Below, piece by piece: positions 13,926 through 28,153 of a stretch of 45,577 nucleotides of DNA. Positions within the stretch are counted from its first letter, which is position 1. Every line of letters begins with the position of its first letter. Source of the DNA: a virus. The position numbers and the translations under genes were made by a program. Under the pieces are notes generated by a model, which was given only the letters and a program-made list of their open reading frames with translations, did no database searches and was not told where the DNA came from. The stretch covers positions 1 through 45,577 of IMG/VR virus record IMGVR_UViG_3300029309_000061. One strand, written 5' to 3'.

Positions 13926-14202
13926 CCTCAAACTCTATTCCAAAATCAAGTGGTTCTTCTAACTCTGGTGCATATATTATAGTGGCTTCCATCTTGGAGT
14001 CAATATGTGATTTAAATTTATGTGCATCTTCTTCGTTTTCAAACCAAAATTCTTTATCTATAAGTTTCTTTCTTTTCTCTACTTTACAAACTACCAAATG
14101 ATTACAGTCAGGTGGTATATCATAAGGATAGTTTATTGTTAAAGTCTCAAGATTGTAAGGACCTTGCGTTACTGCCCACACTTTTATTTTTTTTGTTTTC
14201 AT
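13918..14202 (-). CDS. 94-aa hypothetical protein
   Basis: Starts MKTKKIKVWAVTQGPYNLET; ends in a very acidic tail (LEEPLDFGIEFEDE). No motif recognised. Its first 56 bases lie inside the upstream nuclease-like gene in another frame. Sits between nuclease and ribonucleotide reductase, so a role in nucleotide or DNA metabolism is possible but unsupported. Confidence 0.5.
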   Translation of the reverse strand: MKTKKIKVWAVTQGPYNLETLTINYPYDIPPDCNHLVVCKVEKRKKLIDKEFWFENEEDAHKFKSHIDSKMEATIIYAPELEEPLDFGIEFEDE

Positions 14203-14542: not shown

Positions 14543-15389
14543 GGAATATCTCTGGAACTTTAGGTTCTGTCTCAACGTGTGTTAAATATTCAGGACCATA
14601 AGAGTAGATGAAAGTCCTAAGGTTGTCCCAACACAGGTACTTAAAATCACAGTAGCTACACTGCATACTTAACTTCTTGTTACTGCTAGTCTTTGACTGT
14701 GGTATAGGGTCAATCTTTTCTTTAGGTATATCTCCCTCGACAACACTCTTAACTTCCTTTATCTCTTCTCCTTTTGTTTCTAACTCCTTAGTGAAATCAT
14801 AAACATCCAGACAAACATTTCCATTCTGTTTATCAACTGCAAGAAAAGCTCCATGTGTTTTATTTGTAACAAGAGGGTCATCTTTTCCTGCGTATACATA
14901 CGAACTGAGTTGAGAGATATATCCAAATGGGTCATCATCTTTTAACTTTCCTTCCTTGAACTTCTTATAGGCATAGCTGCTGCAAGACTTTACGTCAACT
15001 GTCATACCATCAATGACTGCATCTCTGTGTCCCTTGACACCAAATACATTTAACTTAGACTGTTCGCCCTCTACAGTATGACCACTAGCCTTAGCTAATG
15101 ACAGTATCAACTCTTCTATCATATCACCGTAGAAGAACTTTAGTAATGTGTTAGGACGTAGGGACTCACCTTCCTTCGGTTTGTTTACTTTGTACCACAG
15201 CTTTCTCTTACAGGGTGTACCCACAGATGAAAGAGAAAGATACCCTCGTGGTTCTTGAGGAGAGGAGAACCTTTGACTTGCGACAGAGGACAAGTTACTA
15301 CCAAAGGCTGAACCAACGACACTATCCCAACTGCCTTTACCTTCTACAGTTTTATAAATGTCTCTAACAAGGGTATCAATCTTTTTCAT
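14535..15389 (-). CDS. Cas4/RecB-family exonuclease with Fe-S-type cysteines
   Basis: 284 aa. A PD-(D/E)XK nuclease with D123 (GHRDAVIDG), D132-V-K134 (TVDVKS) and a Q motif around Q160 (YISQLSSYVYA). Cysteines C60 (TPCKRKLWY) and C244, C247, C253 (QCSYCDFKYLC) match the one-plus-three arrangement that holds a 4Fe-4S cluster in Cas4 and AddB-like enzymes. In T7-like podoviruses such a gene replaces the gp6 exonuclease in recombination and host DNA breakdown. Not linked to any CRISPR locus here. Confidence 0.82.
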   Translation of the reverse strand: MKKIDTLVRDIYKTVEGKGSWDSVVGSAFGSNLSSVASQRFSSPQEPRGYLSLSSVGTPCKRKLWYKVNKPKEGESLRPNTLLKFFYGDMIEELILSLAKASGHTVEGEQSKLNVFGVKGHRDAVIDGMTVDVKSCSSYAYKKFKEGKLKDDDPFGYISQLSSYVYAGKDDPLVTNKTHGAFLAVDKQNGNVCLDVYDFTKELETKGEEIKEVKSVVEGDIPKEKIDPIPQSKTSSNKKLSMQCSYCDFKYLCWDNLRTFIYSYGPEYLTHVETEPKVPEIFHD

Positions 15390-15483
15390 CTGCTGTTCCT
15401 AACTTATGTTTCCGTTTTCTAAATTTGTTTTTAGTTTTATCCGGGACAACCTTCAGGCTGTACTTAGGAGTACGTAACTCCAT
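15376..15483 (-). CDS. 35-aa basic peptide whose start lies inside a hairpin
   Basis: Reads MELRTPKYSLKVVPDKTK and then a Lys/Arg-rich stretch (FRKRKHKLG), ending 14 bases inside the exonuclease gene, so it probably couples to exonuclease translation. The ATG and the codons after it lie in the loop of a 12-bp perfect inverted repeat (15448-15459 / 15484-15495). Only a weak ribosome site (CAGG) is seen. It fills the gap between SSB and exonuclease. Confidence 0.5.
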   Translation of the reverse strand: MELRTPKYSLKVVPDKTKNKFRKRKHKLGTADEKD

Positions 15484-15495
15484 AGCCTGAAGGTT
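15448..15495 (-). promoter_or_regulatory. Hairpin enclosing a start codon (12-bp inverted repeat)
   Basis: AACCTTCAGGCT (15448-15459) and AGCCTGAAGGTT (15484-15495) are exact inverted repeats around a 24-base loop. The loop holds a second stem, GGAGT/ACTCC, whose base touches the ATG at 15483-15481. No U-run follows on the minus strand, so it is not a simple intrinsic terminator. Likely a translational control or RNA-processing element, or a protein-binding site. Confidence 0.6.
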
Positions 15496-15511
15496 TCTTG
15501 GTTTAGGAACT

Positions 15512-16027
15512 TTAGAATGGGACTTCCTCTTCACCTTGCACCACCTTTAACTTTTGTGGTGGTGGCATAGCTGCCACTTCATCCTCGTCATCTGATGGTG
15601 GCTTGATATGCTCCAACACTTTTACTCTGTCCAGTCGTGTTCCCACGATTGACTTACGGCTTGTGTCATAAACAGATAGAGTAACCGTGACGGTAGAGCC
15701 GTTACCAATGAGACCATCTACATCCATGTCCCACTTAGTACCGTCAGACTTTAAGACAACAGGAGACCCACTGTCCCAATCTCTACCAGTATTGAACTTA
15801 CGTACAAACCGTACTCGTGTACCTCTACCCTCAGCATCTGCAGAGCCTTTCTTCATAGACCTAGATGCAGACAGTCTGTCCATGTTCTCCTTGTCGAGAA
15901 TCATGTCAATAGTGCAAGCACCATCAAACTCTTCGTATGCACCCTCAAAACCCTTGAGGTCTCGATTGTCTTCAAACACTTTTGCCCATTCAGCAATGCC
16001 TGTTAAAATAACTTTTCGTGTAGCCAT
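15512..16027 (-). CDS. Single-stranded DNA-binding protein (T7 gp2.5-like)
   Basis: 171 aa. Beta-rich body (residues ~5-140, with VILTGIAEWAKVFEDN and TVTVTLSVYDT) and a disordered acidic C-terminal tail ending GEEEVPF. An acidic tail closed by Phe is the hallmark of phage SSBs such as gp2.5, where it binds polymerase and helicase. Encoded next to DNA polymerase behind its own promoter. Begins MATRKVILTG after AGGAG. Sequence identity to T7 is not obvious; assigned by tail and context. Confidence 0.72.
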   Translation of the reverse strand: MATRKVILTGIAEWAKVFEDNRDLKGFEGAYEEFDGACTIDMILDKENMDRLSASRSMKKGSADAEGRGTRVRFVRKFNTGRDWDSGSPVVLKSDGTKWDMDVDGLIGNGSTVTVTLSVYDTSRKSIVGTRLDRVKVLEHIKPPSDDEDEVAAMPPPQKLKVVQGEEEVPF

Positions 16028-16053
16028 TTATTTTCTCCTATTTAATTTGACTT

Positions 16054-16081
16054 ATTATACCAGATAAAATTTATATTGCAA
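16054..16081 (-). promoter_or_regulatory. Sigma70-type promoter for the SSB operon
   Basis: On the minus strand: TTGCAA (16081-16076), a 16-base spacer, TATAAT (16059-16054), in the 57-base gap upstream of SSB. The -10 lies 26 bases before the ATG, followed by AGGAG. It would drive SSB, the 35-aa peptide, exonuclease, nuclease and ribonucleotide reductase. Confidence 0.65.
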
Positions 16082-16084
16082 CCC

Positions 16085-17935
16085 CTAATGTACATCGGCA
16101 TATGTTTTTCCATACTGAACGTCAATACCTAAGTCGACATTAAGTTTAAGTTGCTCGTTTAACTTATTGATTGCCCACGTTAAAACACTTGTGTGTTCAT
16201 TCTGTTCTCCCTCTTTTATTACGTTTATACTTTCATCATGGAACTGACCAACTATGTTTGGTCTTCTCATTCTATAGTATGCTACCCACTTATCAAAGCA
16301 GTATGAACCTGTACTCTGATTGATAGTGGAGAAGGCATCTTTCTCGTAGCGTAGTGAATGCCAGAACTTACTTACTGGATTCTGTATCCACATCTCTTCT
16401 CCTATCCTTCGTATCTTCTGTGCGTCTGAGAATGCTCTGACGGACCAGTTACGTTTCCAATAAGCATCAAGTAGAGCCTGTGCTTTCTTTACAGACATGC
16501 CTGTTTCTCGTGAAAGTTTAGCAGCACCCACTCCGTAAGTGGCTGAGTAGTTGACTACCTTAAAATCTTTTCTCAAAGCTTTCAAGTCTACCTCACCTCT
16601 CTGATGCTTATCTATGTCGGACTGTGTGATGACCTTTGCGTGTTTAGCTAAGTCGAGGTGAGGGTCAAAGCCTTTACGTGACATCTCCTCTACATACTTA
16701 GGGTCATACGGTTTCATATAGTGTCTCTTAGTCGTATCCTCTAGTGAGGTCATGTCTGCTCCACAGAGAAGAGAACCTTGAGGTGCTGTAAGACAACTGC
16801 GTATCTCTTTTCCCCAAGGCTTCTCTACTGATGGGAGATTGACAAGAGGTTTCTTATGCTTGAAACGTAGGGTATTTGTAAGTCCGTCTATCTCTGCTCG
16901 TAGGTATCCGTCACGTTCACACTCAACGAATCCGTTCAGTATGCCTAATCTGTGTTGTAAAACTGTTAGACCGTCTAAGACCTGCACAGAAGGATTGTCC
17001 TTTGCTAGTAGCTTGACAGACTCTGTTAGTTCACCGTTGAGTCTAACCTGCTCTACCTTCTTCTCTTCGCCTGTCTCCTTGTTCTTGTTGTACTTATATG
17101 TACAAGGTTGCCAACCCAAAGAATACAACCACTCTTTCACTTGGTCAGTGGAGTTTGGATTGGCTTCCTCTGCACCTTTAACAACCGTGACATCTTTGTC
17201 ATATGTATCTGGAAGACCATGTTCTTCTAACAAATCAAACCATCTTCTGCCATGAGAGGAGAGAGTACCATCTTTCTTGAAGCATACTTTTGGTTTACTC
17301 TGCACTCTGTATAACTTTCTCATTGGCATAACATCTATAAGTTCTGTGACTTTTTTATTCTGTAACTCTGTCAACTCGTCAACACACTTCTTGGCTAAGT
17401 CAACATTAACTCTCCAACCTGAACGCTCTGCCTGTCTAGCACAGTCCATTTTAAACTCTAAGTATTTAAAAAACTTATCTAGTTCTCTCTTATCTTTGTA
17501 CAGCACCATAAATCTTTTAAGGAGATTGTTCCAGAGTGCTTGTGTAATCTTAACATCTTCTTCACATCTATGTGAATAATCCTCTATGGACAAGTTGTTC
17601 CAATCATCTATCTTTGGTTTCTCTATGCCAAAGTCAGGAAAGAAACTGTCTAGTCCATGCTTGCTTCGTGTAGGGTTTACAACCCAAGACATAGGTAATG
17701 TATCGTATAGTCTTGCGTCTATCTTAATATCTAATATCTTCTCTAGTAATGGTATGTCATACCGTATAATGTTGTGACCAACAAAGTGTTTCTTTACAGA
17801 AAACAACAATCTCATATCGTCATAGTCGTACAGTGTAATAATATCTTTCTCTCTATCAGTATCAATATACGACAGACAGTGTATCTTTGTTGCATCATCA
17901 AGAAGTCCGTTTGATTCCACATCAAATATTATCAT
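16085..17935 (-). CDS. Family A DNA polymerase with 3'-5' exonuclease (T7-like)
   Basis: 616 aa, replicative polymerase. Exonuclease: D5/E7 (FDVESNG), N55-Y59-D60 (GHNIIRYD) and D127 (RCEEDVKI; the usual Tyr of ExoIII is Arg123). Polymerase: motif A D394 with E399 (GADMTSLE), motif B R455-K459-Y463-Y467-G (KVVNYSATYG), motif C H566-D567-E568 (QFHDES). Position 463 is equivalent to E. coli F762 and is Tyr, as in T7. At 616 residues it is shorter than T7 gp5 (704), probably lacking the thioredoxin-binding loop. Overlaps the helicase gene by 4 bases. Confidence 0.96.
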   Translation of the reverse strand: MIIFDVESNGLLDDATKIHCLSYIDTDREKDIITLYDYDDMRLLFSVKKHFVGHNIIRYDIPLLEKILDIKIDARLYDTLPMSWVVNPTRSKHGLDSFFPDFGIEKPKIDDWNNLSIEDYSHRCEEDVKITQALWNNLLKRFMVLYKDKRELDKFFKYLEFKMDCARQAERSGWRVNVDLAKKCVDELTELQNKKVTELIDVMPMRKLYRVQSKPKVCFKKDGTLSSHGRRWFDLLEEHGLPDTYDKDVTVVKGAEEANPNSTDQVKEWLYSLGWQPCTYKYNKNKETGEEKKVEQVRLNGELTESVKLLAKDNPSVQVLDGLTVLQHRLGILNGFVECERDGYLRAEIDGLTNTLRFKHKKPLVNLPSVEKPWGKEIRSCLTAPQGSLLCGADMTSLEDTTKRHYMKPYDPKYVEEMSRKGFDPHLDLAKHAKVITQSDIDKHQRGEVDLKALRKDFKVVNYSATYGVGAAKLSRETGMSVKKAQALLDAYWKRNWSVRAFSDAQKIRRIGEEMWIQNPVSKFWHSLRYEKDAFSTINQSTGSYCFDKWVAYYRMRRPNIVGQFHDESINVIKEGEQNEHTSVLTWAINKLNEQLKLNVDLGIDVQYGKTYADVH

Positions 17936-19530
17936 GCTGCGTTCCTATCCTTTTCCCTTGTATCCTCTGTGAGGAGTGTTGTCTCAGGGTCATAGTATAC
18001 ACTACCTGCTCTACCAAGTCTAGCAAAAGGTCTGTTCTTATCCACAATAAAATCTGTGGTGTTCTGAACTGTAGTGTCCTCGTTCTCTACGTCTCTCTCT
18101 ATCTTGATACAGATGATAGCTTCTTCTTCCAGAGAGGACGCATACTTAGTACGTCCATCATCATTGACCTGTGATATAAATACAACACCTATGTTTAACT
18201 CTTTAGAAAGCTGTGCCATTCTTGCACCAAGAGATGTAAGAACAGAGGTAGCACCGTCAACACCTGTCTGACTTAGGTAAGCAAGTCTCTGTACGTGGTC
18301 AACAAATATATACTCTGCACCGTAGACGGTGGACGCAAGCCGTGTATACTCCAGTAGTTTGAGAGGGTCATCATGTGAACGCATCTCAAATACTATGGTA
18401 CGTTCTCCCTGTGTCGCTTCAAGGGCAGCCTTAATCACATCATCTTCAGAGACACCGTTCTCTTGTGCATCGTCCTTTGTCCTGACGTTCACACCAAGAT
18501 GGTAGGTAGCCATAGCACGATACGTTGTACTTCGCATTTCTTCCATGTGCAGGAGAGCAATCCTAGTGTCTGGATTCTTCAGCAGTCCTGTCTCAAAGTA
18601 CCGTATCACCTCAGTCTTACCTGTACCTCTTGGTGCTTTTAGGAACGTCAAGCCACCCTTAACTATACCACGAATTTTGTCATCAAGACCTGTGTGTCCT
18701 GTCGGAGTATAGTCGTAGGGATTCTCTGTGCGTATCGCCTGTGCCACTTCTTCATCGGAACAGAAGAAGTTGTCAGGTGAATACCTCTGTGGTTTCAAAG
18801 CAGTCCACTTCAACTCTTCTCCGTCACCTGCCATGAGAAACTCATTAGCATCTTTGTACTTAGACATGGGTACATAGTAAAGCTTACTTGGGAAAGATTC
18901 GTACAATCTCTCTGCACTCCTGCGTCCTGCATCATCTAACTCACCTGCATAGATAATCTCCTTGAAGGAGTTGAGATAGTTGTAGTTCTGCTTGATGAAC
19001 TTCTCACCGATAGACGCAGAGGGGAGTGACTTAACAAAAAACTTCTGACCTAATATCTGGTAGAGACTTGCTGCATCAAACTCCCCTTCGGTCACGTAGA
19101 GTTTATTAGAGGAGTTAGAATTAAACTCAGGACCAAACAAGTGATTCATACCAACACCCTTGTCCTTTATCCAAGTCTTAGACTTATCATCAAAGGCTCT
19201 GTACTTGACCGTGTGTGGATACTTGTAAGCATATCGGACAGGCTTACCGTCTGCGTCTGTCTGTATCTGTATGCCATACAGCTTACAAACCTCAGGGTCT
19301 ATTCCCCTGATGTCATCGTAGGTGACACCCTTAACTTCTTTCATCATAACATTCTCTCTCCTCTTTAATGGATAACTTTGCTTTGCCCAATCAAACACAG
19401 GTAGTCTATGCTTGTTCGGATAGGACTCACCACAACTGTGACAGAAGCCGTAGCCATCGTCATTCCAGTTGAATGCGTCTGAAGAACCACAGTCCTCAAA
19501 GGGACAGGCTTGGTGTGGATTATCTGCCAT
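17932..19530 (-). CDS. Bifunctional primase-helicase (T7 gp4-like)
   Basis: 532 aa. N-terminal zinc-binding module with C9, C14, C30, C33. TOPRIM primase fold with E148 (VTEGEFDA) and D199-D200 (ELDDAG). C-terminal DnaB-like helicase with Walker A 299-306 (APRGTGKT), E330 (HMEE), Walker B D411 (YIFVDH), Q454 (FISQ) and an arginine region KNRPFARLG near 499-507. It unwinds DNA and lays primers for the adjacent polymerase. Full-length relative to the family. The Walker A form with PRG before TGKT is somewhat unusual. Confidence 0.95.
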   Translation of the reverse strand: MADNPHQACPFEDCGSSDAFNWNDDGYGFCHSCGESYPNKHRLPVFDWAKQSYPLKRRENVMMKEVKGVTYDDIRGIDPEVCKLYGIQIQTDADGKPVRYAYKYPHTVKYRAFDDKSKTWIKDKGVGMNHLFGPEFNSNSSNKLYVTEGEFDAASLYQILGQKFFVKSLPSASIGEKFIKQNYNYLNSFKEIIYAGELDDAGRRSAERLYESFPSKLYYVPMSKYKDANEFLMAGDGEELKWTALKPQRYSPDNFFCSDEEVAQAIRTENPYDYTPTGHTGLDDKIRGIVKGGLTFLKAPRGTGKTEVIRYFETGLLKNPDTRIALLHMEEMRSTTYRAMATYHLGVNVRTKDDAQENGVSEDDVIKAALEATQGERTIVFEMRSHDDPLKLLEYTRLASTVYGAEYIFVDHVQRLAYLSQTGVDGATSVLTSLGARMAQLSKELNIGVVFISQVNDDGRTKYASSLEEEAIICIKIERDVENEDTTVQNTTDFIVDKNRPFARLGRAGSVYYDPETTLLTEDTREKDRNAA

Positions 19531-19959
19531 CTACTTCTCCCATCTATAAAATATGTGTCTGTCTATTCGTGTGGTCTTAGTCTTCGTCTTCGCCCATGCA
19601 GGTCTTACATAAGTAGCATGGTAGTGTGTTGCTCCCTCTGTAAAATCTAAAGTTATTGTACCATACAACACCATTCTTGCATAGCGTTTTGCATTGTACC
19701 ACTCGTCACTTTTTAAATCAGGTGTGTCATTTTTACCATCGCAGTACCAAGAGAACTGGCATTTGTGTATAACTGGTTTGTCTGTACCTTTATATGTGAC
19801 AGCCTGTGTTACCACATCACATACATTGTTAGGAAACCTACTGTCTTCTACTCTGTTCATAACTACTTGACCCACAGCTAATTGTCCAAGCATAGATTGA
19901 AACTTTGATTCATGGTAGATGTTTGCTGCCATACACATTAATGCTGTTTCTAATATCAT
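19531..19959 (-). CDS. SleB-type cell wall hydrolase (Hydrolase_2 family)
   Basis: 142 aa. AANIYHESKFQSMLGQLAVG carries the catalytic Glu (E17) of the SleB/CwlJ family. It is followed by GQVVMNRV, the cysteine-bearing CQFSWYCDG segment, GATHYHATYVRPAW and IDRHIFYR, all typical of the family. Predicted to cut peptidoglycan glycan strands. No signal peptide, so it needs a holin or similar to pass the membrane; two tiny membrane proteins lie directly upstream. It sits in the minus-strand replication operon, apart from the late lysis genes. Confidence 0.88.
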   Translation of the reverse strand: MILETALMCMAANIYHESKFQSMLGQLAVGQVVMNRVEDSRFPNNVCDVVTQAVTYKGTDKPVIHKCQFSWYCDGKNDTPDLKSDEWYNAKRYARMVLYGTITLDFTEGATHYHATYVRPAWAKTKTKTTRIDRHIFYRWEK

Positions 19960-20048: not shown

Positions 20049-20274
20049 CACAAAAGTTCCTCCAAAATTTACAGTTGTTATCTCCGTTACATACACGTTC
20101 ATGCTTGGCATTTTCCCAACACTCTGATTGCCACGGTGAGAAATACTTTGTAGCAAATCTGTCTGCCCAGTCCTGTCCATCTACTATCCATAATGCAAAT
20201 ATAGGGAGTGGTACAAGCAGTAGGAACACATAGAAGAAGGCAGTTCCAAAGCCTTTGTTGTGGTATGGTTTCAT
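20041..20274 (-). CDS. 77-aa membrane protein, possible holin-type lysis protein
   Basis: One hydrophobic segment (FFYVFLLLVPLPIFALWIV, residues ~13-31) then a short, Trp/Cys-rich domain (CWENAKHERVCNGDNNCKFW) that would face the periplasm. ATGA overlap with the integrase stop. With the 30-aa peptide and SleB hydrolase it makes a compact three-gene cassette. A holin role is inferred from context. Confidence 0.6.
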   Translation of the reverse strand: MKPYHNKGFGTAFFYVFLLLVPLPIFALWIVDGQDWADRFATKYFSPWQSECWENAKHERVCNGDNNCKFWRNFCDG

Positions 20275-21356
20275 TTTCTCCTCATTTCTAGTGCAGACTT
20301 GGCTGTATTAAAGTTATGTTTGTTGTAAGGGTTAAGGCTCTGCACGTTCCTATGCCCTGTCACAGACATGATTGCCAGTTGGTCAACACCACTGTTGATT
20401 AACTCTGTTATTGCTGTCTTTCTGAGGTCTCCCATCTGTAACTCTCTAGGAAGGTCACAGAGAGCCTTTACTTCATTTGCAAGGGTTGACACCTGAGAAT
20501 GCTCGATGGGAGCATACGAACCATCTGAGGGTCTCTGGTGAGGTATTACATATTCTTGGAATCCCCAATCCTCTTTCTGCTGCAACAATAAATTCTCTAA
20601 CTTACTGTCAAGAGGTAGTTGTACAGTTGCACCACGCTTAGTCTGTACTATAGTCACCATTTTGTTATCAAAGTCTACAGATTCCCAGTTAAGTAGTCGG
20701 ATATCTATTGGTCTCTGTCCCCATTCGTAGCACATCAAGGCTAGTAGGCCTATGTTTCTGTACTTGAATTGAGAGAAGGCTGTCCCAATAAACAATTCAA
20801 CCTGCTCTCGTGTCCACACGACAGAACGTGGTTTGTGTGACCTCTTCTTTACAACAGACATTGGATTCCTATCTATTAAACCAAGAGATATACAAAAGTT
20901 TAACACAACAGAGAACATTCTAGAGAGTTGATTAGCATTATCAACACTAGCACTACGCACCCAAGTCTCATAGAGTTCAGTGCAGTGAGTGGGAGTGAGG
21001 TATTTAAGGGTAATGTCTCCCAACTCTCTGCCGAACATCTTTGTAGAACATATTTTATTAAGACCGTAGGTGTAAGTCTTCTGTGTTCTAAAAGATAATG
21101 AGTTAAACTGTCCTGTACTGTAGTAGTAGGCCAGTATCTGCCTTAGGTTACTGTTTATATCAACATTACCTGCCAGAATCTTACCTCTTCTGAAGTCCTC
21201 TACAATCTTAACAAGTTTAGGTATCTCATACCTAGCTGCACGTCCATCTTTGAATGTCATATTCTTAACAACACCAGATAGCCTAGCGTCCTTCGGTGGA
21301 ATAAAACGATAGACAGTAGAACCGTCTTTAAGTTTTGCTTTTGTTGTGTATTTCAT
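20271..21356 (-). CDS. int: Tyrosine-family integrase
   Basis: 361 aa. N-terminal arm and SAM-like core-binding region (residues ~75-165), then the catalytic domain: R215 (WGQRPIDI), K240 (QTKRGA), R312 (MGDLRKTA), H335 (VTGHRN) and Tyr344 (NPYNKHNF). The usual His of HxxR is Gly309. Predicted to integrate the phage at a host site, so the phage may be temperate. No attP or tRNA fragment was found beside it. Starts inside the DUF3310 gene; transcribed from the promoter at 21.75 kb with the replication genes. Confidence 0.93.
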   Translation of the reverse strand: MKYTTKAKLKDGSTVYRFIPPKDARLSGVVKNMTFKDGRAARYEIPKLVKIVEDFRRGKILAGNVDINSNLRQILAYYYSTGQFNSLSFRTQKTYTYGLNKICSTKMFGRELGDITLKYLTPTHCTELYETWVRSASVDNANQLSRMFSVVLNFCISLGLIDRNPMSVVKKRSHKPRSVVWTREQVELFIGTAFSQFKYRNIGLLALMCYEWGQRPIDIRLLNWESVDFDNKMVTIVQTKRGATVQLPLDSKLENLLLQQKEDWGFQEYVIPHQRPSDGSYAPIEHSQVSTLANEVKALCDLPRELQMGDLRKTAITELINSGVDQLAIMSVTGHRNVQSLNPYNKHNFNTAKSALEMRRK

Positions 21357-21669
21357 CTTCTTCTTTCAGTTTTTCAATCATCTTATTTATGTACCACCTA
21401 GCTTTCTCTAGGTCTTGAATAGGCTTGCCTTTGTAGTGCCATCTCCACAAGTATTTGAATGATGCAAGCCAACAATACGACACAAAGGCAGACACTACAG
21501 CACCATGCACCATAGACTTCATAGCATCTATACACTCTATACCACCCTTAGTGTAGTGGGAAGGGTGATTAACCATGTCTTCCATCTGCTCATTTTCCAT
21601 CTGACATTCGAAACAAACACCATTGTCATCTACTAAGTTACCACAATGTTTACAATAATCTTTATCCAT
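21328..21669 (-). CDS. DUF3310 protein with N-terminal zinc ribbon
   Basis: 113 aa from ATG 21669 (AAGAGGTG seven bases upstream; a GTG at 21675 is the alternative). Residues 1-25 have two CxxC pairs (CKHCG, CFECQ). Residues ~30-105 match DUF3310: VNHPSHYTKGGIECIDAM, FKYLWRWHYKGKPIQDLEKA and WYINKMIEKL. This domain is widespread in phage early regions, often labelled nucleotide kinase-like, with no proven role. First gene after the 21.75-kb promoter. Confidence 0.82.
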   Translation of the reverse strand: MDKDYCKHCGNLVDDNGVCFECQMENEQMEDMVNHPSHYTKGGIECIDAMKSMVHGAVVSAFVSYCWLASFKYLWRWHYKGKPIQDLEKARWYINKMIEKLKEEDEIHNKSKT

Positions 21670-21675
21670 CTTCAC

Positions 21676-21739
21676 CTCTTAAATAATTAACTTAAAGTAG
21701 AAGGAGTTAAGGTTAACTTTAAGTATTACATAAAGTAAT
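21676..21739 (-). promoter_or_regulatory. Leader with CTTTAAG-type dyads, copy 1
   Basis: Between the -10 and the DUF3310 start. On the minus strand CTTAAAGT and ACTTTAAG form an 8-bp perfect inverted repeat around 17 bases, and CTTAAAGTTAACCTTAA is shared base for base with the leader at 27.7 kb. Probably an operator or 5'-UTR control element. Confidence 0.6.
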
Positions 21740-21767
21740 ATTATACAGTAATAAAAAATGCTGTCAA
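21740..21767 (-). promoter_or_regulatory. Consensus sigma70 promoter for the integrase/replication operon
   Basis: Minus strand: TTGACA (21767-21762), 16-base spacer, TATAAT (21745-21740), both perfect matches. Drives DUF3310, integrase, lysis cassette, primase-helicase and polymerase. Its -35 lies over the end of the upstream gene. Confidence 0.82.
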
Positions 21768-22222
21768 TCCCCTTTCTCAAATTTATTTTCCTGTGACTCT
21801 TCTGCAACACCCTTGTATGCCTTGATAACATCACTGGAGAATAATTTCTTAATGTTTACAAGGTACATCTTGGATGCGTTATGGTCTCCACCACTCACCG
21901 TCTTGACGAAATCAAGAGAGTCAACTATTTTACGCAGTGTCTCTGTTTTAAATACAAGTGTGGCATATATGTCACCATTGATACACAGATTATGAAACCA
22001 GAAGTCGGACTCAGTAGCATTAATACCTGATGGTTTCCCCCATGACTCATACTCCACGGCTATATTTCCAGTACGCTGCCACATACCTTTCTCTGACTTC
22101 ACCTCTATCTTCTTGCCTTTAAACATGTCTATGACTTCATCTTCCATGCCTAGACCAAAGTTTAGGTCTCCTGCAAAGTCGATGTCATACTTCTTCCTGT
22201 CTGCTTTAGTGGGTCTTGTCAT
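21764..22222 (-). CDS. 152-aa putative PD-(D/E)XK nuclease-like protein
   Basis: ATG at 22222, with AGAGGAGA seven bases upstream, is preferred to longer forms. Core: FAGDLNFGLGMEDEVIDMF, KKIEVKSEKG and TGNIAVEYESWGKPSG. A Glu in the first helix, E-V-K and a following Glu fit a PD-(D/E)XK fold, seen in phage endonuclease-like proteins that also keep the WGKPSGI segment. Function is inferred from these motifs. Confidence 0.58.
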   Translation of the reverse strand: MTRPTKADRKKYDIDFAGDLNFGLGMEDEVIDMFKGKKIEVKSEKGMWQRTGNIAVEYESWGKPSGINATESDFWFHNLCINGDIYATLVFKTETLRKIVDSLDFVKTVSGGDHNASKMYLVNIKKLFSSDVIKAYKGVAEESQENKFEKGD

Positions 22223-22469
22223 TCGATTTCTCCTCTGGTAAATCTTCCTTGAGTTGATAGTCTGTGTACCAACCACCCTCTCTCCCCTTTGGTTGTTCAA
22301 AATCTAGTATGAATGATAGCTTGTGCATGAGAGACTCCAACTCACAAACATGTTCATAGTAGATAGGTATTTTTTCTGATGTATTACAGTTTAATTCTCT
22401 CAGCATGTTAACGTATCTGAGTAACTCTATTCTATCCTTAGGGTCTATACTAATTTGTTTCATATCCAT
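22206..22469 (-). CDS. 87-aa early hypothetical protein
   Basis: Starts MDMKQISIDPKDRIELLRYV; helical through residue ~60, then a polar tail (KEDLPEEKSNDKTH). Overlaps both neighbours by about 17-20 bases. No family recognised. Confidence 0.52.
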   Translation of the reverse strand: MDMKQISIDPKDRIELLRYVNMLRELNCNTSEKIPIYYEHVCELESLMHKLSFILDFEQPKGREGGWYTDYQLKEDLPEEKSNDKTH

Positions 22470-22647
22470 ACTCCACTACTATTCCTGTGTTCCACTTCTT
22501 CATCTCTACCTTTGCCTGTTCTTTGGTGTCAAAGGTTTTGATAGGACTTTTATCATCCCACATAGCACCGCAGCCCTCTTTGACGTACTCTAATCCTTCT
22601 GTCTCAAAGGGTTCAAACATTACTGCATACTTCTTTACCAATGCCAT
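22450..22647 (-). CDS. 65-aa early hypothetical protein
   Basis: Starts MALVKKYAVMFEPFETEGLE, with TFDTKEQAKVEMKKW in the second half: a strand plus helix pattern of a small alpha/beta protein. Overlaps both neighbours. Function unknown. Confidence 0.55.
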   Translation of the reverse strand: MALVKKYAVMFEPFETEGLEYVKEGCGAMWDDKSPIKTFDTKEQAKVEMKKWNTGIVVEYGYETN

Positions 22648-22961
22648 ACAACTCTCCTCTGTATATCTTTTAGTGATAGGTCAGGCTCTACACTGTCCCC
22701 AACAATATTCGTACCTAACACAAGTCCTTTATTGACGAGGTTAAACAGATGGTTCTTGTGAAGAATACCCTTGAAAGACCACAGATGTTTCTTCTCTGCG
22801 TACAATCCCTCGTCATCTATGTATATGCCATCACCCTCAGGAGTGATACCCACCACATCAAACGTAGAACATTCTATCAGTTTATATATGTCCTTGTAGT
22901 CACCAGAGTAGTCTACCTCTGTCACCTCTTTCCTATCAGGGTCTATTAGATATGCTTTCAT
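22635..22961 (-). CDS. DUF3846-like early protein
   Basis: 108 aa. MKAYLIDPDRKEVTEVDYSG, YKDIYKLIEC, GIYIDDEGLY and KGLVLGTN follow the layout of DUF3846 proteins common in phages and plasmids. Biochemical role unproven. Lies in the leftward early operon with overlaps on both sides. Confidence 0.68.
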   Translation of the reverse strand: MKAYLIDPDRKEVTEVDYSGDYKDIYKLIECSTFDVVGITPEGDGIYIDDEGLYAEKKHLWSFKGILHKNHLFNLVNKGLVLGTNIVGDSVEPDLSLKDIQRRVVWHW

Positions 22962-23335
22962 TTTTCCAATCCAAAATATTGTTGAGCTTGTGCCGTTGTA
23001 AATATATACTCCTTATTGTTGTGTAAGTTCTGCACTATGTAAGGTCTTGTCTTTGCTTTTACTCTATAACCAATCAGGGAATACTTCTCTCCTCTCATCT
23101 CTCCTATCTTGGCTGTGTCTATTTTGTCCATCTCTGCGTATGTTTTAAGGTCTCGCTGCTCCCTAGTCTCTGCACCCTTCACCCTAAGGTTTAACTTGAA
23201 CGTCACCTCTGAGTCATCAAAGGACGCATTGCCTACATTTATATCGAATCCATCTACTTCAATAGAGTCTTGTAAAGCCTGTCTTATCTGCTTTACCCAA
23301 TCTCTTGTCAGTTTACTTTCCCACTGTAGTGTCAT
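22958..23335 (-). CDS. 125-aa early hypothetical protein
   Basis: MTLQWESKLTRDWVKQIRQA, then beta-rich segments (EVTFKLNLRVKG) and a C-terminal NKEYIFTTAQAQQYFGLEK. Overlaps the DUF3846-like gene by 4 bases. No catalytic motif recognised; probably an early host-takeover or nucleic-acid-binding protein, but this is only position. Confidence 0.52.
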   Translation of the reverse strand: MTLQWESKLTRDWVKQIRQALQDSIEVDGFDINVGNASFDDSEVTFKLNLRVKGAETREQRDLKTYAEMDKIDTAKIGEMRGEKYSLIGYRVKAKTRPYIVQNLHNNKEYIFTTAQAQQYFGLEK

Positions 23336-23344
23336 ATCTTTCTC

Positions 23345-23722
23345 CTATTTATATGAAAATATTTGTGGTGGACTGTTATCACTCTTTGCAAGTAATGCCC
23401 ACTCACTTTTGTGTATAGGTTTCTCACTGTCCTTGTACACAAAACTCTTAAACTTATGTGGATTGTAAGTAACTCTGTCACCTACTATCGATAAGTTGTA
23501 TGTAATAAAGTCGTGATGCATGTTGTTATGGTCTAACATATCACCTCTAACAAAGGCATGCACATTTTTACGGCCTTCCTGCAGCACCCTCTGTCTACCA
23601 CTCTGGCGAACAACATACTCAGGATTTTCTATCGCCACAACATTTGTGTGTGCAATGACTCTGCCTTTATGTCTCACGGAGAAGACATGCTTGTGCAGAT
23701 TGTAGTATACTTCTACTCTCAT
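23345..23722 (-). CDS. 125-aa conserved phage protein of unknown function
   Basis: MRVEVYYNLHKHVFSVRHKG, then RVLQEGRKNVHAFVRGD: a pattern I recall from many marine and enteric phages without an assigned role. Rich in His, Arg and Tyr. Overlaps the next upstream small gene by 4 bases. Confidence 0.62.
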   Translation of the reverse strand: MRVEVYYNLHKHVFSVRHKGRVIAHTNVVAIENPEYVVRQSGRQRVLQEGRKNVHAFVRGDMLDHNNMHHDFITYNLSIVGDRVTYNPHKFKSFVYKDSEKPIHKSEWALLAKSDNSPPQIFSYK

Positions 23723-23892
23723 AGTCCTAACTCCCTTAGTTGTTCAGGTGTAATTATACTCTTATTGTTCAAATTGTCCACACATTCCTGTGCTTCTTCC
23801 CTTGAATAAAAATATGAATAGGATGTTTCACCATCAGTCACTTGATACTCTACTACATCCTCACTTATTCGTGCTTCTCTAACTGTGTACAT
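23719..23892 (-). CDS. 57-aa early hypothetical protein
   Basis: Starts MYTVREARISEDVVEYQVTD and ends ITPEQLRELGL. GAGGAGA lies seven bases before ATG 23892. Acidic, with a central SYSYFYSREEA segment. Overlaps the next gene by 4 bases. Confidence 0.6.
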   Translation of the reverse strand: MYTVREARISEDVVEYQVTDGETSYSYFYSREEAQECVDNLNNKSIITPEQLRELGL

Positions 23893-23904
23893 TAATTTAT
23901 CTCC

Positions 23905-23985
23905 TCAAAATAAATATTTAAAAGTTACGTCTAGTATATAGCAGAGTGTTACCAATGCAATAAATATTTTTAACTCTCTACTCAT
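23905..23985 (-). CDS. 26-aa membrane peptide with a strong ribosome site
   Basis: MSRELKIFIALVTLCYILDV then TFKYLF; one short hydrophobic helix. TAGGAGGG lies seven bases upstream of the ATG, the best Shine-Dalgarno in the early region, and the peptide fits exactly between two genes. Its size puts it below usual gene-calling limits. Confidence 0.5.
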   Translation of the reverse strand: MSRELKIFIALVTLCYILDVTFKYLF

Positions 23986-23989
23986 TTAA

Positions 23990-24982
23990 TTACCCTCCTA
24001 AAATATTGGCCACAGTATCCACACAGAATCCATTGCCTAGCATCTTGTATCTCTGACTATTTGAGATTGGTTTAACTTCCCCAAGATAGCCATGTTTGTG
24101 GTCAAACTCTCCGTACTGTGTGTATAGGTCTGGTACTGTCTGCAATCGCTCGCACTCTAAAGGAGTCAATGCCCTCCAATGCAGAGTGCCTACATCTACC
24201 TTAGGCATTCGCCACCCACCTTGCATGGTCGTGAGTGTGGGACTCTTGCCTTGCCTACTGTATACTCTCTTGATTATGTCATAGCCTTTTAGGTCTGCTT
24301 CTCCTACCTGTTTACACTTGTCCCAATCTGGGTGGCCTTTGTCATCGAATACTATCTGTCTCTTACTTCTCTTGTAGTAGTGTGAGAGATTGCCACCTTT
24401 AAAGTAGTTGGCATCTAGACAGTAGGACTTGTCCCTGTCTGCCATAGCACCATCTTCTAGTATGTCATTGAGTACAATACCCTTATCTTCTGACCTCGTA
24501 AACTTAATATTAGTCCAATATAATCTTCTACGTTGTTGGGCAGAATCAATCTTACTATTCTCCTCATAACATTCTATGTCTGGGAATATCTCTTTGAATG
24601 TCTGCGTAAAGTAATCTCGCCACTCACTAGGCATTGAAGCAACATTCTCTATCAATACTTTGTCAATGGCGAGACCTCGCAAGGCATCCAATAAAACCTT
24701 AGACATATCTCGTGGGTCTGACTGAAACTTTCTGAGTCCAGAAATTGAATAACTCTGACAGGGAAAACCTGCCACCAGTAAATCAATCTTCTTACCCTTT
24801 AGCTTAGTCCAATTTCTTGCATCACCATGTCGAATGATATCTGGATATCTATACCTACTAACTGCCGTGGCATACTTATCTATCTCAAAAGCATGGTACT
24901 CCCTTGGGTGGCTGCGGATTCTATCTAGGGCTATCCTAGCACCTGACATGCCATCAAAGAAGCTAACTACTGTGTCATACAT
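23990..24982 (-). CDS. DNA (cytosine-5) methyltransferase
   Basis: 330 aa. Motif I FFDGMSGA (8-15), motif IV GFPCQSYS with catalytic C75, motif VI IENV (E112), motif VIII QQRRRLYW (149-156), target-recognition region about 160-270, then LTPLECERLQ and motif X RYKMLGNGF with N317. All catalytic motifs are intact. Makes 5-methylcytosine, probably to protect phage DNA. No paired restriction enzyme is visible, so it is an orphan. Target sequence cannot be read from the protein. GAGAGGTT precedes the start. Confidence 0.95.
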   Translation of the reverse strand: MYDTVVSFFDGMSGARIALDRIRSHPREYHAFEIDKYATAVSRYRYPDIIRHGDARNWTKLKGKKIDLLVAGFPCQSYSISGLRKFQSDPRDMSKVLLDALRGLAIDKVLIENVASMPSEWRDYFTQTFKEIFPDIECYEENSKIDSAQQRRRLYWTNIKFTRSEDKGIVLNDILEDGAMADRDKSYCLDANYFKGGNLSHYYKRSKRQIVFDDKGHPDWDKCKQVGEADLKGYDIIKRVYSRQGKSPTLTTMQGGWRMPKVDVGTLHWRALTPLECERLQTVPDLYTQYGEFDHKHGYLGEVKPISNSQRYKMLGNGFCVDTVANILGG

Positions 24983-24995
24983 ACACTAACCTCTC

Positions 24996-25121
24996 TTATC
25001 CTGTTTGTAATAATTTTCCACAGATACCACACTCATAGCCATGATATCTATGGTTGTCCTCAGTAAACTCATAGTATACTGCATTCTCCTCGCAATCGTG
25101 TTCTTCTACCTCTTCATCCAT
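24996..25121 (-). CDS. 41-aa zinc-ribbon-like peptide
   Basis: Starts MDEEVEEHDCEENAVYYEFT and ends with ECGICGKLLQTG. A C-terminal CxxC plus upstream His and Cys could form a small zinc site. GAGG six to seven bases before ATG 25121. Lies between the methyltransferase and a larger hypothetical gene. Confidence 0.52.
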   Translation of the reverse strand: MDEEVEEHDCEENAVYYEFTEDNHRYHGYECGICGKLLQTG

Positions 25122-25130
25122 ATTTATACC

Positions 25131-25772
25131 TCATTTAATATTATGTATTCTTCTCCATGCTACCCATGTTATCGCTTGTATCTGATAGGGTAGGTAGCTT
25201 GTCCCTTCAGATTGATTTATCTCCCTAGTGGCATCTATATATGCCTGAGAGATAACCCTATACTGTTTGTTGGTTACGTTACTGCTATTGCTACTCAGAG
25301 CAAACTTCTCTCCCATGTAGATAGCTTTAGCATGTCCATCAATACAAACTGTATTACTGCTAGTCTCCTTTAAATCATATCCATAGATACAATCAAAGAA
25401 TGCTTTTACTTTATTCCCATTTAGTATATCTCTAATATCCAGATAGACATTAGAACTACCACTATCAAGCAAACCAAGTATTTTTATTGCTTTCTCTTTA
25501 TTAGCATTATACGTGCATACTTTTACCTCAGACAATGGTATTCCTGTCTTATATGCCACACACATATTTTCTGCATCAATAACATTCCTCTCCCATTTAT
25601 TATTGGGGGACAATGCTGCCAATACTCCCACAACTATAGCTGAGTGCATAGTAGTCTTTTTAGCTATGTCTCTACAGCTTTTGTTGGCTATCTTATACCA
25701 ATTCTCTCCATGCTTTTTCTCATAAGCCTTGGAGAGATAGTACACTCCCTTTATATTCTCAATCATATCCAC
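25131..25772 (-). CDS. 213-aa conserved phage protein, helix-hairpin-helix glycosylase-like
   Basis: Has the segments AALSPNNKWERNVIDAENM, NKEKAIKILGLL, VCIDGHAKAIYMGEKF and PYQIQAITWVAWRR. These are shared by a phage/plasmid family of unknown function (DUF7178-like, from memory) that resembles the all-helical fold of HhH base-excision glycosylases. The invariant Asp in CIDGHA could be functional. Any DNA repair role is inference. Confidence 0.62.
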   Translation of the reverse strand: MDMIENIKGVYYLSKAYEKKHGENWYKIANKSCRDIAKKTTMHSAIVVGVLAALSPNNKWERNVIDAENMCVAYKTGIPLSEVKVCTYNANKEKAIKILGLLDSGSSNVYLDIRDILNGNKVKAFFDCIYGYDLKETSSNTVCIDGHAKAIYMGEKFALSSNSSNVTNKQYRVISQAYIDATREINQSEGTSYLPYQIQAITWVAWRRIHNIK

Positions 25773-26056
25773 TCCTGTCTTAATTTAATACCTAATACTC
25801 TTGATAGGTGGTCGACTATAGCGAATCCCATATCCATACCACAACCACCAATACGAACACCATTATTTCTTATTTTATATCCTAATGCTTTTGATACATA
25901 ATAATTATAATTTAATGGCATATTTTCTTTTATACTAATTATTTTTATGTCCCTTGTCATACCAGATTGGCTGACATGTTGAACATTAGTGTATATCGTG
26001 TCTCCATCTTTTAATGAAGACTTTAGATATTCTATTGCTTCTCTTTTTACCATCAT
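25763..26056 (-). CDS. 97-aa conserved early protein of unknown function
   Basis: Contains TNVQHVSQSGMTRDIKIISI, then GVRIGGCGMDMGFAIVDHL. The HVSxSGMTR and GGCGMDMGFA pairs recur in small phage and plasmid proteins of several phyla. GAGAGGAGA precedes the start, just after the long hairpin at 26071-26116. Confidence 0.65.
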   Translation of the reverse strand: MMVKREAIEYLKSSLKDGDTIYTNVQHVSQSGMTRDIKIISIKENMPLNYNYYVSKALGYKIRNNGVRIGGCGMDMGFAIVDHLSRVLGIKLRQEWI

Positions 26057-26070
26057 TTTTTTCTCCTCTC

Positions 26071-26116
26071 AATAATGGTCATAGGACACTCAAGAGAATG
26101 CCCTATAATCATTATT
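26071..26116 (-). promoter_or_regulatory. 18-bp RNA hairpin between two early genes
   Basis: As minus-strand RNA: a 7-bp stem (AAUAAUG/CAUUAUU), a 3x3 internal loop, an 11-bp stem (AUAGGGCAUUC/GAGUGUCCUAU) and a UCUU tetraloop. Two of the 11 pairs are G-U, so the upper stem is complete only as minus-strand RNA. No U-run follows, arguing against a terminator. Possible RNase III site or mRNA stabiliser. Confidence 0.65.
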
Positions 26117-26372
26117 CTGCTTGGTCTAATTCTAACTCTATCATAGTCAAGATAGCTTGTAAACATGTAAGTGTCCCATCATAAGGATATTCCTTATCAA
26201 GGGTAGGACAACAGATATAATAGTCTGTGTCATACTCATTCTTTTCCATGCCTACACAAGTATGAACTTTTATTTGCTTGCCATAATGGGCAAAGCTACC
26301 ATTCATTCCCAACATGTAATAGTCTTTTATACCTTTAGCATTTAGACCTTTTCTTAAAGTTCTTTCAGTCAT
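26112..26372 (-). CDS. 86-aa early hypothetical protein
   Basis: Starts MTERTLRKGLNAKGIKDYYM and continues with LGMNGSFAHYGKQIKVHTCV; ends LTMIELELDQAE. Its stop is within the base of the long hairpin. TAGAGGAG precedes the ATG. No family recognised. Confidence 0.58.
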   Translation of the reverse strand: MTERTLRKGLNAKGIKDYYMLGMNGSFAHYGKQIKVHTCVGMEKNEYDTDYYICCPTLDKEYPYDGTLTCLQAILTMIELELDQAE

Positions 26373-26430
26373 CGTATTTACTCCTCTAGTTTATACGATA
26401 GGTAGCACCTCTAAAGATTGTTGTCAATAA

Positions 26431-26655
26431 CTACTTAGCGTAGCCTTTTTGTCCGAATACTTTTTTCTTGCTATACTGTGCAATATAGCCACTAAGCCAA
26501 GGTCTGACCTTGCCATTTTTCGTATAGAAATACTCATTACTTTTGTCACTATTATAAGGCAATATCATATTTTCTATGATATTTTTTGCGATATCTCTTG
26601 ATATCATCTTCTGTGATTTTCTATAACCTTTAATGTTGAATATATTGTTTTTCAT
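26431..26655 (-). CDS. 74-aa first gene of the leftward early operon
   Basis: Starts MKNNIFNIKGYRKSQKMISR; basic overall and helical at the N terminus, with KVRPWLSGYIAQYSKKK near the end. GCGAGG eight bases before ATG. As the first gene leaving the control region it may act very early, but I do not recognise it. Confidence 0.58.
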   Translation of the reverse strand: MKNNIFNIKGYRKSQKMISRDIAKNIIENMILPYNSDKSNEYFYTKNGKVRPWLSGYIAQYSKKKVFGQKGYAK

Positions 26656-26713
26656 AATTAATACCTCGCATAAATAATGAGGTACTACCTATGGTATAAA
26701 CTATCTGCAAATA

Positions 26714-26767
26714 AGGGTAGTCCCATGCATTGCTGCAAGGGTAGGTTGGCCTACCTTAGACTACCCT
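26714..26767. repeat. Three-way-junction inverted repeat
   Basis: A 9-bp perfect stem (AGGGTAGTC 26714-26722 / GACTACCCT 26759-26767) encloses two hairpins: TGCA-TTGC-TGCA (26726-26737) and GGTAGG-TTGG-CCTACC (26740-26755). Could be a structured leader or small RNA, or a DNA cruciform. It does not fit a tRNA. Confidence 0.6.
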
Positions 26768-26900
26768 ACATTCGCAAGGTATTTTATTTTGCCGTGGTGC
26801 ATTGCATCTCAGCCGTACTGCTCCCACCATCCAAACGATACACGCTTCACCTACGCTAATCGAAATTGACCCTAGCATGTGGCATTTTATTTCCCTACAG

Positions 26901-26954
26901 CCAACACTATCGTAATGTTGGAGGTCTCCCACGCACTCTGAAAACTACCAGAGT
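26901..26954. repeat. Two hairpins in the leader of the leftward early operon
   Basis: CCAACA (26901-26906) pairs with TGTTGG (26916-26921) over a 9-base loop; ACTCTG (26935-26940) pairs with CAGAGT (26949-26954) over 8 bases. Both are perfect. If the early transcript starts near 27.0 kb they lie in its 5' leader. Confidence 0.45.
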
Positions 26955-27253
26955 TCAATCTATGTAATACTCTAAAACTTGTTACTCTTAAACCGTATTT
27001 TACTTTTCGTTTTTCGTCAAGTTCTTTTTTAGTCTTTTAGTCTATTCGAATCTACATCAAGTCTAGAGTGTCAATTTACGTTTTTAATCTGCCTAAGCAT
27101 TTTACTCTAAGTGTTCGTTTCGATTCGAACTGAGAAGACTATGAACTAAAAAACAAACAATGTGAAGCTTTTTTTTGCATGGCAATGCATTTTTCTTCTA
27201 AACCATTGAAAAACAACGATTTTTTCTTATGAATTGATAGTCAATAATGTATT

Positions 27254-27280
27254 ATTATATAAAAAACATAATAAAAACAA
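27254..27280 (-). promoter_or_regulatory. Candidate leftward early promoter
   Basis: Minus strand TTGTTT (27280-27275), 15-base spacer, TATAAT (27259-27254) in very AT-rich DNA. An alternative is TTGACG (27020-27015) with a weak -10 (TACGGT). A leftward promoter must exist in this region, but neither candidate is secure. Confidence 0.3.
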
Positions 27281-27444
27281 TGCGTTAGCAATAAGTGTTG
27301 TAAAAAAGTGTGGCCAACACGCAACATGCGTGACAAAAATATTACTGCATGCATGTGCCACCCCGGGCTGCGTGGATAGTATGTATGTACTCTGCCAGAG
27401 ATGGGAATTTTAGGTTGTTAAGTACATGTACAGCAGCGTATATT

Positions 27445-27564
27445 TTAGGCAGCAGCTGTAATTATGCCTAAATATTAGGCATTTGTACAGTTTTTACACA
27501 AAGCTTTGTTAATTATTACTCTAGAGGTGGAGGAGAACTGGGGTGCAACGAAAGTATTGCCTAA
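27445..27564. repeat. TGCCTAA heptamer cluster with a 17-bp palindrome
   Basis: TGCCTAA or its complement at 27445-27451, 27465-27471, 27475-27481 and 27558-27564, plus one at 27090-27096. Two copies form TGCCTAAATATTAGGCA (27465-27481), a perfect 7-3-7 palindrome. Fits a dimeric regulator's operator or iteron-like origin sites. Confidence 0.6.
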
Positions 27565-27581
27565 TTTTTGTACATTTTGTG

Positions 27582-27609
27582 TTGACAAGGGGGTGCATTA
27601 TGTGATACT
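27582..27609 (+). promoter_or_regulatory. Rightward promoter overlapped by an operator palindrome
   Basis: TTGACA (27582-27587), 16-base spacer, GATACT (27604-27609, 4 of 6 matches). The -10 is the left arm of GATACTATTGTAGTATC (27604-27620), a perfect 7-3-7 palindrome, so a bound protein would block the promoter. Confidence 0.6.
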
Positions 27610-27694
27610 ATTGTAGTATCAGGTAGCCTAATGTGTATTGTTAAGTATTTTGGCAACAGTCTAGCATTATTTTCTTAGAAGATGAAGATTTATG

Positions 27695-27722
27695 TTGACA
27701 TACATAACGTATACATTATAAT
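27695..27722 (+). promoter_or_regulatory. Consensus rightward promoter of arm D
   Basis: TTGACA (27695-27700), 16-base spacer, TATAAT (27717-27722), both perfect. Drives the plus-strand genes from 27.84 kb on. Its layout and downstream leader match the leftward promoter at 21.75 kb. Confidence 0.82.
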
Positions 27723-27812
27723 ATACTTAAAGTATCTTAAAGTTAACCTTAATCTCCTACTCCTTTAGTTAATATTTAAAGTTACTTTAAGAATACTTTA
27801 AGTATACTGGTA
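27723..27812 (+). promoter_or_regulatory. Leader with CTTTAAG-type dyads, copy 2
   Basis: Has five or so copies of CTTAAAG/CTTTAAG and the 17-mer CTTAAAGTTAACCTTAA also found in the 21.7-kb leader, in the same order after the -10. Candidate shared operator or RNA element. Confidence 0.6.
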
Positions 27813-27838
27813 ACAGAAAATTTAAATTAGAGGGGAAG

Positions 27839-28153
27839 GTGTATTTTCTGTCGTTTGTTCTTGACAAGGGACACGGAGAAAGTATAACTAGGGTCATGCC
27901 AAAGACAAAAACGTATGTTAGCGATAATGTCTTGCACGAATTTTATAAAGCTTTAGCTGATGGTGACGAATCAAGACTACGAAGATGTCATATCCCAAGG
28001 TCAGATGTTTTCTACGTCCGTGAAAAGATATTTCAGGATACTGGAGTACGCTACACACTAGACCACGTAGAGAGGGCAATGTACCTAGAGGGAATGCTTG
28101 AAGCAAAAGATGTTTATCAGCCACACGTAAAGAGAAAAAACTATGGCACATGA
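27839..28153 (+). CDS. 104-aa hypothetical protein at the start of arm D
   Basis: GTG start at 27839 with GAGG five bases before it; an ATG at 27896 would give an 85-aa form starting MPKTKTYVSDNV. Body: LHEFYKALADGDESRLRRCH, PRSDVFYVREKIFQDTG and YTLDHVERAMYLEGML, a helical pattern I recall from marine phages. It could be a DNA-binding regulator given its first position, but no clear HTH is proven. A TTGACA-N16-TATAAC element lies inside its 5' end. Confidence 0.62.
   Translation: MYFLSFVLDKGHGESITRVMPKTKTYVSDNVLHEFYKALADGDESRLRRCHIPRSDVFYVREKIFQDTGVRYTLDHVERAMYLEGMLEAKDVYQPHVKRKNYGT
27861..27888 (+). promoter_or_regulatory. Promoter-like element inside the first arm D gene
   Basis: TTGACA (27861-27866), 16-base spacer, TATAAC (27883-27888). 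A start seven bases on would fall at the ATG at 27896, giving a leaderless mRNA for the shorter protein form. May be chance, but the geometry equals the other promoters. Confidence 0.4.

Follow-up and report, generated by a model that had tools for sequence, protein, structure and literature searches.

Two consensus promoters in an HMO-2011-type phage open into matching arrays of short palindromes that may be operators of one regulator

Introduction

The OL and OR operators of phage lambda place three 17-bp dyads over the promoters at each of two early promoters, and these operators differ between immunity groups. Arrays of short sites are also read by ribbon-helix-helix proteins such as MetJ, omega and ParR. 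In phages 186 and P2, operator arrays for Apl and Cox, respectively, are found at the early promoter and beside the integrase and att, and the regulator gene is the first of the early operon (PMC7498355). A transcribed leader can serve two early promoters as well: HK022 putL and putR each fold into two stem-loops, and it is as RNA that they act on RNA polymerase (PMC9378689). Here, we describe a pair of promoter-leader modules in IMG/VR virus record IMGVR_UViG_3300029309_000061, where two perfect promoters on opposite strands run into arrays of short palindromic sites (dyads), one ahead of the integrase/replication genes and one ahead of the rightward arm. The window, i.e., the whole stretch of DNA that was analysed, is 45.6 kb long and is part of a 52.6-kb record.

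The integrase of the window and the first gene of its right arm (ORF1) match HMO-2011 and Roseobacter CRP phages, which identifies the window as an HMO-2011-type podophage; in line with this, we found the homologous polymerase, integrase, and right-arm ORF1 as well as the divergent two-arm layout of that group. Among marine viral groups, that of the HMO-2011-type phages is reported to be dominant and widespread (PMC9038755). For CRP-3, a phage of this group, integration into tRNA-Met was shown by others (PMC6918029), which makes the regulation of the integrase biologically relevant in the group. Promoters are not analysed in the paper that describes the diversity of HMO-2011-type phages.

Results

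Two perfect promoters run into the same array

A perfect TTGACA-N16-TATAAT promoter occurs only twice in the window, where 0.03 would be expected, and each of the two continues into an array leader. The elements of the two modules are as follows (start points throughout are assumed from the -10 element):

21740..21767, minus strand: leftward promoter TTGACA-N16-TATAAT of the DUF3310/integrase/replication unit, perfect consensus, kept in relatives L003-L028
21678..21739, minus strand: left leader array, with equivalents 5' of the integrase in relatives
21736-21728, 21724-21716 and 21698-21690, minus strand: left-leader dyads ACTTTATGT, ACTTAAAGT and ACTTTAAGT
21723-21707 and 21706-21702, minus strand: left-leader 17-mer and CTCCT
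27695..27722, plus strand: rightward promoter P1, TTGACA-N16-TATAAT, perfect consensus, with at most one mismatch in nearly all relatives
27723..27806, plus strand: right leader array, conserved in relatives
27725-27733, 27736-27743, 27775-27782, 27784-27792 and 27795-27803, plus strand: right-leader dyads ACTTAAAGT, CTTAAAGT, TTTAAAGT, ACTTTAAGA and ACTTTAAGT
27722-27752 and 27776-27806, plus strand: arms of the right-leader inverted repeat, the first containing the 17-mer (27736-27752)
27753..27778, plus strand: pyrimidine-rich centre TCTCCTACTCCTTTAGTTAATATTTA, 5' arm of a predicted RNA duplex, S2
27817..27842, plus strand: purine-rich stretch AAAATTTAAATTAGAGGGGAAGGTGT, 3' arm of the predicted S2

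The 17-mer CTTAAAGTTAACCTTAA is identical in both leaders and occurs nowhere else in the 52.6-kb record, and in both copies it is followed by CTCCT, TTAAT, and TTTAA. Together, the two leaders make up a 46-nt arm pair that is 74% complementary across a distance of 6 kb, and of the five ACTTWAAGT sites in the whole record, all but one fall within them. It is the clustering of dyads that is informative, as single-dyad counts across the window are not (CTTAAAG, 13 found versus 12.9 expected). The first-pass annotation had proposed one promoter-leader cassette present on opposite strands 6 kb apart, and the two sole perfect promoters with their shared 17-mer and downstream motifs bear this out.

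The layout is conserved in relatives

Relatives were fetched via the integrase (L003-L082) and via the right ORF1 (L093-L172 and L174-L333). The dyad tests used mechanical definitions that were picked after looking at the data, and left arrays were pulled out with a permissive pattern. In nearly all of the 77 right ORF1 loci examined, an AT-rich dyad array follows a promoter at or near consensus. Across 36 non-redundant right leaders, dyads exceeded dinucleotide shuffles with a mean z of 1.6. A dyad centre lay 3 to 8 nt past the -10 element in 25 of the 36 (shuffle mean 3.5, maximum 8), so that this first dyad straddles the expected start point and is partly outside the transcript. The dyads of the right leaders occupy two zones, at about 3-30 and 66-92, and their centre-to-centre spacing peaks at 6 and 12 (46 versus 2.8 at 12).

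Within 2.1 Mb of relatives, most clusters of at least three dyads are located at the right leader or shortly 5' of the integrase. The left copy lies 5' of DUF3310 or of the integrase in the group whose integrases are at least 65% identical, and clusters of the same dyads precede the integrase in relatives with 50-58% identity. Of the 77 loci examined, 66 had a left array, and several of the rest are truncated contigs or show weak dyads only; because IMG/VR contigs are fragments, a copy missing from a contig is weak evidence of absence. In 11 of the 17 loci tested (L039, L050, L053, L054, L055, L058, L065, L070, L072, L081, and L082), the left array is separated from the integrase by a complete tRNA-Arg(TCT) gene, likely an attachment site or a cargo tRNA.

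The two arrays change together

Both arrays are present in 20 contigs. For 13 non-redundant genomes, the k-mer similarity between left and right arrays was 0.245 within a genome versus 0.165 between genomes, and none of 20,000 permutations did as well, in a test that corrects only incompletely for phylogeny and composition; the control, the sequence 5' of the right promoter, gave p values of 0.07-0.11 in the same test. Contigs that have 10-bp dyads (TACTTAAGTA) carry them at both sites (L074 and L078), and contigs with 11-bp dyads likewise have these at both. From subgroup to subgroup the dyad sequence shifts (CACTTAAGTG, ACAGTTAAACTGT, TTAAACATTAATGTTAA), while the layout is kept. Such co-variation within genomes is the effect expected of a common trans-acting factor, although copying between the sites could cause it too. 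In this clade, then, relatives keep both copies and the copies co-vary, rather than retaining a single one or diverging independently. The earlier suggestion that one regulator or one RNA feature controls both units thus gains support as to shared control, whereas its generality is limited, since the left copy is not universal.

Dyads behave like DNA sites, and part of the right leader like RNA

In the right leaders, pairing of the arms with themselves (5':5' -20.4 and 3':3' -22.0) is as strong as pairing of the 5' with the 3' arm (-19.4), i.e., the small units are palindromic by themselves, which is more than a cis RNA hairpin would need. The main array shows no strand preference, with sense and antisense folding alike. 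For the right leader of the window, a strong long hairpin (z -4.9) requires bases 5' of the likely start; without those, z drops to -1.4 and the fold switches to the S2 duplex. The left transcript of the window folds like its shuffles (z 0.07). A simple RNA hairpin as the sole explanation is weakened by the palindromic units, the missing strand preference, and the need of the hairpin for upstream bases.

The S2 duplex has a different character. In the window, 27753-27778 is predicted to pair with 27817-27842 over 19 pairs (-16.6 kcal/mol), and in the clade of the window the CTCCT centre is predicted to pair in this way with a purine-rich stretch ~50-60 nt downstream, with up to 27 pairs in relatives. 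Duplexes of this type, with 15-27 predicted pairs, occur in most right leaders of the clade that have the purine stretch. Own partners pair better than foreign ones (p 0.014, eight representatives), and the sense strand (-22.2 kcal/mol) outperforms the antisense strand (-15.3 kcal/mol), which indicates that G.U pairs are used. A DNA layer and an RNA layer are thus probably both present, with the DNA array as the feature common to both copies. On the question of DNA or RNA, which the first-pass annotation had left between the two, the dyads behave like DNA sites and the CTCCT of the right leader is one half of an RNA-like duplex.

We also considered described RNA elements. A terminator or attenuator, with a GC-rich hairpin and a T run, was rejected, as neither leader has a GC stem or a T run. 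No Rfam match was found in the leaders, and a lambda nut-like site was set aside as they contain no boxA GCTCTTWA, the only boxA form tried. A replication origin was considered as another possible reading, given the AT-richness and the location where the genes diverge.

A second promoter and ORF1

Downstream of the right array, two further features precede and form the start of the rightward unit:

27861..27888, plus strand: second promoter P2, TTGACA-N16-TATAAC followed by TAGGG, directly 5' of ORF1
27896..28153, plus strand: ORF1, first gene of the right unit, 85 amino acids, with a conserved HIPxSDVFYVR core (alignments A2 and A5)

All 76 relatives searched have a promoter of the P2 class (TTGACA-N16/17-TATAAC plus TAGGG, just before ORF1). 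Immediately 5' of the P2 -35 (region 27720-27890) is a conserved TTGTCGTTT element, and in L105, L113, and L117 a strong Shine-Dalgarno sequence and an ATG open a frame of 8-12 codons that ends at the P2 -35. P2-like sites were also seen elsewhere: TTGACA-N17-TATAACTAGGGG precedes a left-arm gene in relatives, and TTGACA-N16-TATAACTA is located at 44346-44373 (plus strand; TATAACTA at 44368), directly 3' of the gene at 43439-44341. In the right promoters of HMO-2011-type relatives (L174-L251), TATAAT is followed, mostly after 4-6 nt, by a second -10-like TATAACTA, where a sigma-dependent pause element would be expected.

The ORF1 family has an invariant HIPxSDVFYVR core and is found in hundreds of marine contigs. 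An open reading frame at 27839-28153 had been noted, and its product named as a candidate regulator. The frame is there, although its start is most likely ATG 27896 rather than 27839, because stops close the upstream frame in some relatives and the protein alignment begins at that ATG. As for the product, searches of Pfam, PHROG, and Protein Data Bank (PDB) sequences gave no match, and no winged-helix match was obtained. Its structural model is helical and of low confidence (predicted local distance difference test, pLDDT, 65.4), with no gain from a deeper alignment, and the Foldseek comparison of this low-confidence model was discarded as meaningless. ORF1 is thus a candidate regulator by position only, and it also occurs where the integrase array is absent (HMO-2011 and CRP-2).

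Gene layout around the modules

Genes diverge at ~27 kb, where the GC skew flips. The unit read leftward (21675-11857) comprises genes for DUF3310, integrase, an endolysin-like protein, primase-helicase, polymerase, exonuclease, and ribonucleotide reductase. Small ORFs as well as terminase and portal genes lie on the rightward arm, from 27896 onwards.

21328..21669, minus strand: DUF3310 protein, first gene of the left unit (PF11753, 2.2e-15); likely start ATG 21669, a position inferred from relatives, with Shine-Dalgarno sequence AAGAGGTG
20271..21356, minus strand: tyrosine integrase (PF00589, 1.4e-18; phrog_1)
11857..19959, minus strand: rest of the left unit, with endolysin-like, primase-helicase, DNA polymerase A, Cas4-type exonuclease, RusA-like resolvase, and ribonucleotide reductase genes (PHROGs)

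No tRNA gene was found in the window, nor an attP when sought as a match to a tRNA 3' end, and searching GTDB genomes with the integrase yielded no prophages. At the divergence and GC-skew switch, ~1 kb (26656-27694) is apparently non-coding and is a candidate origin or packaging site. A 25-nt inverted repeat (92%; 26387-26411 and 26679-26703) flanks the first leftward ORF (26431-26655).

Discussion

The explanation that we favor, and to which we give about an even chance, is that the two loci are paired promoter-operator modules through which one trans-acting DNA-binding regulator acts on the rightward and the integrase/replication units. Each copy would pair a consensus sigma-70 promoter with short AT-rich palindromes (TACTTAAAGTA type, ~12 bp apart) arrayed over the start point and the first ~80-90 transcribed bases, one block on either side of a centre poor in dyads. 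One protein, probably phage-encoded, may bind both arrays cooperatively and so control the two units jointly; with the start point bound, the simplest outcome would be repression or delay of both. An RNA layer probably lies on top, in the form of hairpins and, for the right leader in this clade, the duplex between centre and purine stretch. The strength of both promoters, each at consensus, and the array that they share point to joint rather than opposite regulation, so that the simple switch between states suggested earlier fits less well.

Several observations weigh against a single shared DNA-binding regulator. The left array 5' of the integrase is absent in HMO-2011, CRP-2, CRP-207, and CRP-603 despite their integrases, and hence belongs to this clade and not to all HMO-2011-type phages. 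The genes scanned, which took in part of the small ORFs, yielded no repressor-like or helix-turn-helix protein. The concerted change of both arrays is also explicable by copying from one site to the other. In addition, hairpins that reach beyond the dyads form in the integrase-leader arrays (mean z of -1.9 for the inner stems, n = 19, with hand-set boundaries), their own arms pair best (with splits chosen in favor of the own pair), alignment A3 of these leaders contains one two-sided compensated pair and several G.U changes, and L036 retains the hairpin with few dyads. These RNA features are what one would expect if the leaders acted as RNA, that is, as a structured 5' element, transcribed from each of the early promoters, that modifies RNA polymerase, stabilizes the mRNA, or gates translation, with the CTCCT centre pairing with the downstream purine-rich, Shine-Dalgarno-like stretch. 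The S2-type duplex, with its preference for own partners and the sense strand, points the same way, as do the hairpin leaders of CRP-207 and CRP-603 and the asymmetry between the halves, with CTTAAAG in the 5' and CTTTAAG in the 3' half (p 0.009 right, 0.006 left). We nevertheless consider such an RNA element a doubtful possibility: the first dyad, the best-placed feature of all, sits half 5' of the start point, the main array is strand-neutral, the left transcript of the window shows no folding beyond that of its shuffles, boxA-like and Rfam matches are missing from the leaders, and the duplex is limited to part of the clade. Somewhat unlikely, too, is a composite element used twice, in which the array would serve as DNA operator across the start point and, after transcription, as structured leader RNA, with the dyad codes of subgroups behaving like immunity types across HMO-2011-type phages.

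A dual regulator and directionality factor of the Apl/Cox type, with ORF1 as the candidate, would account for arrays both at an early promoter and beside the integrase, for the tRNA-Arg between array and integrase in the majority of loci tested, and for a first gene whose product has 85 amino acids. Yet ORF1 gave no winged-helix or other match, its helical model is of low confidence (pLDDT 65), and it also occurs in HMO-2011 and CRP-2, where there is no integrase array; moreover, the units are palindromes ~12 bp apart instead of direct repeats 10-11 bp apart, and the clade of the window has DUF3310 where others have the tRNA, with no match to a tRNA 3' end. We therefore regard this reading as unlikely. 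It is more improbable still that the left copy is simply a duplicate of the right promoter-leader, kept alike by recombination or by shared start-site preferences and with no common regulator. Promoter and leader are indeed shared as a single block, and copying between sites would likewise yield likeness within a genome, but the copies change dyad type together while the remainder differs, long identical tracts are confined to the closest clade, and the dyads remain palindromic through the change.

As a conserved and co-varying operator-like module, the pair predicts two regulated units and offers an entry point to gene timing and integration control in HMO-2011-type phages. The array DNA could be used as bait for the regulator, and the subgroup-specific dyads suggest immunity types among these phages.

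Among described systems, HK022 put is the closest RNA precedent, in that a single phage has a similar transcribed leader of ~70-120 nt at each of two early promoters. The main array departs from what defines put: it forms one inverted repeat in place of two stems, lacks strand preference and an Rfam match, and has its first dyad partly untranscribed. With the arrays of MetJ, omega, and ParR, the modules share tandem short near-palindromes about one helical turn apart over a promoter, although the units here are AT-rich and stand at two phage promoters, and no such protein was identified. Since one array lies beside the integrase, the logic also resembles that of 186 Apl and P2 Cox, with arrays of similar sites at the early promoter and near the integrase; the first-gene regulator is here a positional candidate only, no Cox- or Apl-like protein was found, and in place of direct repeats at 10-11 bp the units are palindromes inside strong promoter leaders, with spacing peaks at 6 and 12. 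Compared with lambda OL and OR, the modules have many 9-11-bp dyads that extend from the start point downstream, their promoters are 6 kb apart with one serving integrase/replication, and no repressor-like family of the CI/Cro kind appeared among the scanned genes, which took in part of the small ORFs. What they have in common with lambda is one operator family at two separate early promoters, with an operator sequence that varies among relatives.

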